Source: Gavia stellata (lineage: Eukaryota; Chordata; Aves; Gaviiformes; Gaviidae). Taken from it: DNA of 64,000 bases. The translations under genes were made by a program, and so were the position numbers. Positions 46,701 to 49,700 of this stretch are shown piece after piece. The notes beneath the pieces were generated by a model. That model saw nothing but the letters and a program-made list of their open reading frames with translations. It was not told the origin of the DNA and did no database searches. How positions within the stretch are numbered: the stretch's first letter is position 1; the number at the start of each line of letters is the position of its first letter. The stretch spans positions 27,225,943-27,289,942 of the forward strand of contig NC_082600.1 in NCBI RefSeq assembly GCF_030936135.1, written 5' to 3'.

Positions 46701-49700
46701 TCTCTTCCTGGCATCTGGAACAGACACCGCATTGTGCTGCTTTCCGCTCAGGGAGAGTCCTGGGCAGGTTAAAGCCATTCCAGGCTTGGGGCTGGACCAC
46801 AGCTCCCTGTAAACTCTGCTTGCTGGGGCTGCTGCCTATGCCAGTCACCTGCCTGGCAGGGCTGGGTGAGGGGAAAGGCTGCTGGTACCACTGTGTGCTA
46901 GGCTGGGGGGACTGGGTTTGGCGTTCAAGCTCCAGCAAACAGGAAAGAGCAAAGGGGTTCCTGCAGTTTTTGAGGCTCCCCCTGGCTCAGGGAAGGCTGC
47001 AGCAAGGAGGAGCTGCTGCCAGCCGCTGGGCTCAGACTTAGCATGTGGAGCGGCTCCTGACCTTGGGAGCAGTGGGCTGTGGGCACGCAGCTGGTCTGCC
47101 TGCTCCAGGGAAATCCACCCGGTGGGGAGTGGGATGCAGCCAGCAGGGCTGTAAACCTGCCCTCTGTAGGCAGAGGACCCGGTTGTGACTGTCCAACCCC
47201 ACCGGGCTGGGGCAAGGCAGAGATCACTCCCTGGCACTGCAGCAGTTGGAGAAGCACCAGGTCAAGAACGGGGTAGAAGGGTATCATCCTAGATCTGTCT
47301 GCGCTTGCCCCACCCACTTCAGTTGCACCCTTGTATCTCCCGCCAATGTGAGCCTGTGGGCTCTGTGTCCCTTCATGCCTCCGCAGGGACCTGCGCTACC
47401 CTCAGTCGCCCCTGCCAGCCACCTCCCATGCTTTCCATCCATTTCCCATTCCCACCCTGCTCCTGTTGCTCTATCCACGTAGCCTCTCTGCAGCTCTGGA
47501 TGTTGCAGGAAGCTTCTGTTAACATGCACACTCATAGCAGGGGAGTGAGTGGGGCAGCTAGACCCGGTCCCTCACATCAAGGGAATGCCTGCCCCATCCC
47601 CAGCTCTTGGGATCAGAGCAGAAGGGTCTGGGCAGGGGAGGTCCAGGGGGAGAGGTGGGGTCTGGGGCAATTCCTGCTCTCTGCTCTGCTGCAGACATAG
47701 ATGAGTGCGCCAATGAGACGCTGTGCGGGAGCCATGGCTTCTGTGAGAACTCAGACGGCTCCTTCCGCTGCCTCTGCGACCGTGGCTATGAGAGCTCACC
47801 CTCCGGGCACTACTGTGTTGGTGAGTCTCCTTTGATCGCTCTGCCAGTCAGTGAGGGAGAGCCATCGGCAGATGCCAGGCTGGTGTCCCAGCTGTGTGAC
47901 TGCTCCTGGGGCACGGACAGGGACTGCATCCGCACATGGAGAATCCCAGACATGGACAGGGCAGCTCATGGAGGCAAAACCCCTTCCCTTAGCACAGCAG
48001 ATCCTTGGGACTGCAAAGGAGCAGGTCTCTATGAAAAAGCAAGCAGCTCCCAGTGAACATGGAGCCCTTCTCTGTGCAGGTGGAAAGGAGGTGCTTGGGG
48101 GGCTGGAGGCACTGAAGGTGCTAGAGAGGTACTTTAATGGGTGCCTGGAGAGAACAGGCAGGGTGTAATATAAGGAAAAACATTTTCACCATGAATACAG
48201 GCAGGCAGTGGAACAGATGCCCAAGATGGCTGTGCAATTGCCATCCCTGGAGCTTTTAAAGACCCAACAGGACAAAGCCCTGAGCAGCCTGGTGGGATCC
48301 CATAACTGACTCTGCTTTGAGCAGCGGGTTGGACTAGAGACCTCCAGCGGTCCCTTCAGACCTGGATGATCCTGTGATCCAGTGACTCACTGCAAGCTGG
48401 ACTTCAGGCTCCTTGAATCCACTGAGAGCAGAGCAGGAATCTCTTGCCAGACTTGTGTTGAGCCGTGGTGTGAACAGAGCTCTCAGCTCATCCCCAGGAG
48501 CTTCCATCTGCCTGCTGAAGGATAACCCCATGCTGCAGACCATGCACAGACTGCCCATGCAGAGCTGGGGCTCCAGCAGCCACTGCTGCCCCTTGCTTTG
48601 CAGATGTGAATGAGTGCGAGCTGATGGTCGCTGTGTGCGGGACTGCGCTCTGTGAGAATGTGGAGGGATCCTTCCTCTGCCTCTGCCCCAGTGACCACGA
48701 GGAGTACAACACAGAGGCAGGGCAGTGCCAGCCCCGCGCAGCCATGGGTGAGTAGGCAGCTAGGACAGAAGCATGGGTGGCAGCTAGAGCAGGAGCGTGG
48801 TAACCCTGGCTGGGGTGGGGTAAAGCTGAGGGGCTGCCAGGGCTGTACAAGCCCACGCAAGCATGGGCAAGCTTTCGTCTGGGGAGAGCTGAGAAGCCTG
48901 AAAGTGCGGACCTGGGAAGGCCACGCTGCCGGTGATGGGTGTGCTCTGGGACCTCCTAGGTGTGGGATGCTGCGTTGGGGTGCCAAGGACCCCATCCTGT
49001 GCCTGCTCTGCTGTCTTCTAGAGGGCCCCGAGATACATGCAGCCCACCTCTCTGACAGCGCAGAGCGCAAGCAGTGCTACTACCACATCAGCGACGTTCG
49101 CCTGTGTGACAGCGTCCTGGCCAAGAACATCACCAAGGAGGAGTGCTGCTGTACTGTGGGGGCAGCCTGGGGTGACAACTGTGAGACTTACCCCTGCCCC
49201 ATCCCAGGCACAGGTAGGACTGTGGCCCCACCACACCAGGCAAGGCCAGTGCTCTGCCCACCAGCTCCACCTTGGTTGCACTAACGAGCTCTTTCTTTTC
49301 TTCACATCTCCCCTTGACATCTGCCTCCTGGCCAGTGGAGTACCAAGAGATCTGCCCTCTCGGGAAGGGCTATATTCCCCAGGAAGATCTGCTCTCAGGA
49401 AAAGTCTCTTTCACAGGTACTAGCACCATTTCCTCTCATTTCTTCCAGGGGGAAGAGAGAGGGCGCTGTGCAAAGCCCTGCATGGAGATGCATCCACAGA
49501 AATAGCTCCCCGGGGCTGTGGTGGGGGATGCTAACATCCTGCTGCTGCTTCCCTCCATCCAAAGAAATCCCAGATTGACAGTGTCACCGAGCTGGAAGTG
49601 ACCCTTCCTCCAGTCATGCCTCACTGCTAGCAGTGACTCTTTTCTCGGTGCAAACCTCCCATGGCCATTTCGAACCAGGGATGGGGTCCAGTAAGACACA

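Follow-up and report, generated by a model that had tools for sequence, protein, structure and literature searches.

Among the LTBPs, LTBP2 is regarded as the exception that does not bind latent TGF-beta and, to our knowledge, the printed statements to that effect rest on mammalian proteins. The four proteins, LTBP1 to LTBP4, constitute one 2R-ohnologue family (PMC4042849). For LTBP1, PMC9713452 lists as determinants of binding to the latency-associated peptide (LAP) of TGF-beta a Phe-Pro (FP) insertion, the second and sixth cysteines and five acidic residues (E5, D12, D17, D39 and E42); an LTBP1 complex has been solved, since PDB entry 9r3s holds LTBP1 together with proTGF-beta1 chains. The two-residue insertion is reported for LTBP1, LTBP3 and LTBP4 and for LTBP-like proteins (PMC3306419, PMC8322146), and Robertson 2011, as relayed in PMC3306419, found it in all of the LTBP-like proteins analysed. 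LTBP-2 is described as being without the insertion (PMC8322146) and without the required consensus (PMC5666796), and is said, without restriction, not to bind TGF-beta (PMC8990920, PMC6943813); the vertebrate TGF-beta binders named in PMC2906442 are LTBP-1, -3 and -4 only. Here we describe an LTBP2 gene of the bird Gavia stellata, in a stretch of 64,000 nucleotides (the window; contig NC_082600.1, here C7, from position 27,225,943) of a 1.32 Gb genome, in which the third 8-Cys domain carries such an insertion together with most of the residues mapped for LAP binding in LTBP1.

Results

Gene identity and genomic context

The gene in the window is the LTBP2 orthologue, as originally predicted, from its neighbours, its fit to chicken primers, the presence of a separate LTBP1 elsewhere and its long C-terminal linker (Table 1). 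The adjacent NPC2 exons, downstream of LTBP2 on the opposite strand, matched solved NPC2 chains with E values of 1.1e-39 (5kwy_C) and 1.9e-39 (6w5v_D). An Fcf1-family exon was found at C7:27153092, 73 kb upstream of the window, and TGFB3 lies on the same contig as LTBP2, 0.62 Mb before the window. The genome holds two Fcf1-family matches, the better one on contig C3, so the name FCF1 for this exon is based on its position. On human 14q24, NPC2, LTBP2, AREL1, FCF1 and TGFB3 are grouped, with NPC2 on one side of LTBP2 and AREL1/FCF1 on the other. NPC2 stands tail to tail with LTBP2 in the window (57847-58829, minus strand), while human NPC2 runs in the same direction as LTBP2 with ISCA2 between them; the NPC2 block thus seems to be inverted relative to the human order.

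The forward primer for chicken ltbp2 (PMC2906442) matched 19 of 20 positions at 50795-50814 of the window, with no match in 100 shuffles, and at the LTBP1 loci reached at best 15/20 (L020) and 14/20 (L073). The reverse primer from the same paper fitted 16/20 at 52036-52055 (four mismatches), with none found at three mismatches or fewer. The chicken LTBP1 primer (PMC2906442), allowing up to two mismatches, gave two matches elsewhere in the genome and none at the LTBP1 locus, where it may span an intron. A misassigned LTBP1 was ruled out, as LTBP1 is a separate gene on contig C2, in a cluster that includes a domain with EIFP between Cys6 and Cys7.

Table 1. Features of the LTBP2 and NPC2 genes in the window (positions counted from its first nucleotide).
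Feature	Position	Strand	Basis or remark
EGF repeat directly 5' of the third 8-Cys domain	48615..48728	+	27/42 identities with the corresponding LTBP1 repeat of this genome
LTBP2 exon, Cys1-Cys7 of the third 8-Cys domain (the second TB domain, whose LTBP1 counterpart binds LAP)	49022..49213	+	splice sites, translation, PDB match to human LTBP1
Codons for the inserted Tyr-Pro pair (third 8-Cys domain, between Cys6 and Cys7)	49189..49194	+	translation
LTBP2 exon, Cys8 of the third 8-Cys domain	49336..49416	+	splice sites, translation
cbEGF directly 3' of the third 8-Cys domain	50056..50169	+	
Second cbEGF 3' of the third 8-Cys domain	50406..50513	+	
Fourth 8-Cys domain (last TB), Cys6-Ala-Leu-Cys7, without insertion	50795..50944	+	exon start approximate
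Long linker from the last TB to the C-terminal EGF	51489..51764	+	type reported for LTBP2 and LTBP4 (PMC3906135)
C-terminal EGF repeat of LTBP2	52032..52139	+	
Last cbEGF and C-terminus of LTBP2, in one open frame	55186..55689	+	
Two NPC2 exons, in open frames 58503-58829 and 57847-58092	57847..58829	-	PDB matches; Pfam match for 58503-58829 but not for 57847-58092

Reading of the third 8-Cys domain

The original prediction had placed this domain at 49022..49416, with ETYP between Cys6 and Cys7 and the Tyr-Pro codons at 49189-49194; splice sites and translation agree with the former, and the translation bears out the latter. AG precedes both 49022 and 49336, GT follows both 49213 and 49416, and the two exons (49022-49213 and 49336-49416), together with a phase-1 base from the exon before, encode 91 residues with eight cysteines, spelling a complete 8-Cys domain with the spacing Cys6-Glu-Thr-Tyr-Pro-Cys7. 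An AlphaFold2 model of the exon at 49022-49213 alone (Cys1 to Cys7, made without an alignment) had a mean pLDDT of 46.6 and lends no support to any reading. The N-glycosylation sequon NVT of the LTBP1 domain is kept as NIT in the LTBP2 domain (49126-49134, plus strand). Further along, the frame from 52508-52762 of the window gave no match in a PDB search.

Comparison with LTBP1, LTBP3 and human LTBP2

The closest solved chains were those of human LTBP1 (PDB 9r3s_C and 1ksq_A), which aligned gap-free over NCEIFPC; the LTBP1 of the same genome also has EIFP at this place, as had been predicted for LTBP1. The second TB domain of LTBP1 resembles the window domain in its eight cysteines, in the four-residue spacing between Cys6 and Cys7 and in D12, D17, D39 and E42, but has EIFP where the window domain has ETYP and E5 where the latter has Gln, and the window domain sits in the LTBP2 gene. 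The second TB domain of LTBP3, which reads EIYP and hence has a Tyr-Pro insertion as in the window domain, belongs to a different gene from that of the window, and LTBP3 was not recognised in the assembly. In human LTBP2, DL stands between Cys6 and Cys7, and the domain is not known to have D12 or D17. The absence of the insertion from LTBP-2, stated in PMC8322146, accords with the original prediction for the human protein, whose second TB domain belongs to the orthologous gene but is without the insertion.

Positions in PMC9713452 were fitted to the LTBP1 sequence in this analysis, all five being D or E there. The window domain possesses both binding cysteines, Tyr-Pro in place of Phe-Pro, and D12, D17, D39 and E42; four of the five docking acids are thus kept and E5 is Gln, a change absent from the original prediction. 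The LTBP1 of the same genome has every one of the determinants given in PMC9713452. The further suggestion that the rest of the domain is LTBP1-like received modest support: the domain shares 40 of 66 residues with human LTBP1 and 32 of 61 with an approximate human LTBP2 sequence. The two EGF repeats 3' of the domain are slightly nearer to this approximate LTBP2 sequence than to the LTBP1 of the same genome (25/43 against 24/43 for the first, 26/41 against 24/42 for the second), and for the last TB domain there was no real difference (30/51 with the approximate LTBP2 sequence, 29/50 with LTBP1 of the same genome and 28/46 with human LTBP1).

Spacing of Cys6 and Cys7 across the genome

A genome-wide search with PF00683 (TB) gave 35 stretches in five clusters, namely LTBP1 (four stretches, C2), the window gene (four, C7) and three fibrillin-type clusters (nine each), the labels being assigned from the counts and the sequences; the spacing count omits duplicate entries for the same locus, and two matches to the pattern in the window that arose by chance. 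Cys6 and Cys7 were separated by four residues in only two of the 35 stretches, the window domain (ETYP) and its LTBP1 counterpart (EIFP), and by two residues in 30, while three fibrillin-type stretches, one per fibrillin-type cluster (L009, L018 and L031), had a shifted cysteine 9 to 11 residues before Cys7. Chance spacing as the source of the insertion was therefore rejected. When 51 residues of the LTBP2 domain served as a protein query, the LTBP1 domain came next (80.9 bits at 61 percent identity), and none of the other sequences among the 31 matches exceeded 50 bits. The TB-domain searches found two LTBP-type clusters (C2 and C7), and neither LTBP3 nor LTBP4 was recognised among their matches; the absence of LTBP3 may be an assembly gap, given that others have amplified chicken ltbp3 (PMC2906442).

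Potential partners

Both TGFB3 (C7) and TGFB2 (C2), named by their best PDB matches, encode the LAP cysteine in their first exons, and TGFB1 was not recognised among the loci inspected (eight, then four) from 29 propeptide matches. According to PMC9713452, that TGFB2 and TGFB3 use this cysteine is presumed but not formally shown. In the chick, PMC2906442 reports that before stage HH25 the apical ectodermal ridge expresses Ltbp2 together with Ltbp1; it also finds tgfb2 transcripts in the ridge, and detected no Ltbp3 in the limb bud at early stages.

Discussion

The insertion is taken to be older than LTBP2, its presence here to be retention and its absence from the human protein a later loss, because LTBP1, LTBP3, LTBP4 and LTBP-like proteins are reported to have it. 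Retention of the insertion is well supported, by parsimony combined with the literature statements, and the loss in human LTBP2 would have occurred after the two lineages split. We consider it likely that an ancestral domain of the LAP-binding type was retained in this LTBP2 and lost later towards mammals, and the latent TGF-beta job of LTBP2 was probably lost only on the way to mammals. The original prediction, that an ancestral LAP-binding surface had been kept, holds for the insertion and for most of the docking residues, with retention as the simplest account; E5 is Gln, and the binding of LAP would follow by analogy with LTBP1. By that analogy, the Tyr-Pro insertion between Cys6 and Cys7 would expose the Cys2-Cys6 disulfide, the retained acidic residues would dock the LAP dimer, and Cys2 and Cys6 could then undergo disulfide exchange with LAP, at its cysteine in each proTGF-beta chain, so that a covalent large latent complex would form. 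The open literature, as far as it was searched, yielded no statement on a non-mammalian LTBP2 with the insertion; Robertson 2011 may contain one, and retention of the insertion in LTBP2 may thus be partly known already.

The same residues could also be a relic, the insertion being kept as structure in a protein that no longer binds LAP, either through loss of a contact such as E5 or because handling in the cell blocks assembly, so that LTBP2 would serve only microfibrils and elastic fibres, as in mammals. The change of E5 to Gln and the description of LTBP2 as non-binding (PMC5666796, PMC8990920, PMC6943813 and PMC8322146) are consistent with this, but the aromatic-Pro pair and both binding cysteines persist alongside four of the five docking acids, which is unexpected for a freely drifting site, and we regard such a relic as rather unlikely. 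It is extremely improbable that the partner of the domain is instead the prodomain of a different member of the TGF-beta family and not the LAP of TGFB1-3: although PMC9713452 argues that other prodomains with a cysteine in the association region may also be bound by LTBPs and fibrillins, the residues kept are those mapped for the LAP of TGF-beta, and the LAPs of TGFB2 and TGFB3 are present in the genome.

Regain, not retention, would apply had the exon been copied from LTBP1 by gene conversion in this lineage, and the somewhat closer identity of the domain to human LTBP1 than to the approximate human LTBP2 sequence points that way. Against it, of the 30 residues that the domain shares with this genome's LTBP1 just 15 agree at the third codon position, an ungapped comparison of the flanking introns gives chance-level agreement (48/200 and 24/100), and the loop letters differ (ETYP and EIFP). 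These third codon positions, introns and loop residues make a recent copy of the exon unlikely; an ancient conversion from LTBP1 may have taken place, and conversion in this lineage is, overall, very improbable.

Retention of a LAP-binding-type domain, the reading that we prefer, bears on what LTBP2 does outside mammals. By analogy with LTBP1, LTBP2 in birds, and perhaps in other non-mammals, could be a true carrier of latent TGF-beta (TGFB2 in the limb-bud apical ridge being one candidate), and the non-binding rule a mammalian peculiarity, a proposal for which we see the chances as evenly balanced. If the LAP site of bird LTBP2 works, the division of the family into TGF-beta carriers and matrix organisers would have arisen recently in LTBP2, the LTBP2 phenotypes of chick and mouse would not be interchangeable, and the two natural versions of LTBP2 would offer a clean test of the residues that make a TB domain bind LAP.

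Elsewhere in the window, an open frame at 10525-10836 (plus strand), which was without a Pfam match, presumably resembles the reverse transcriptase of CR1 retroelements.
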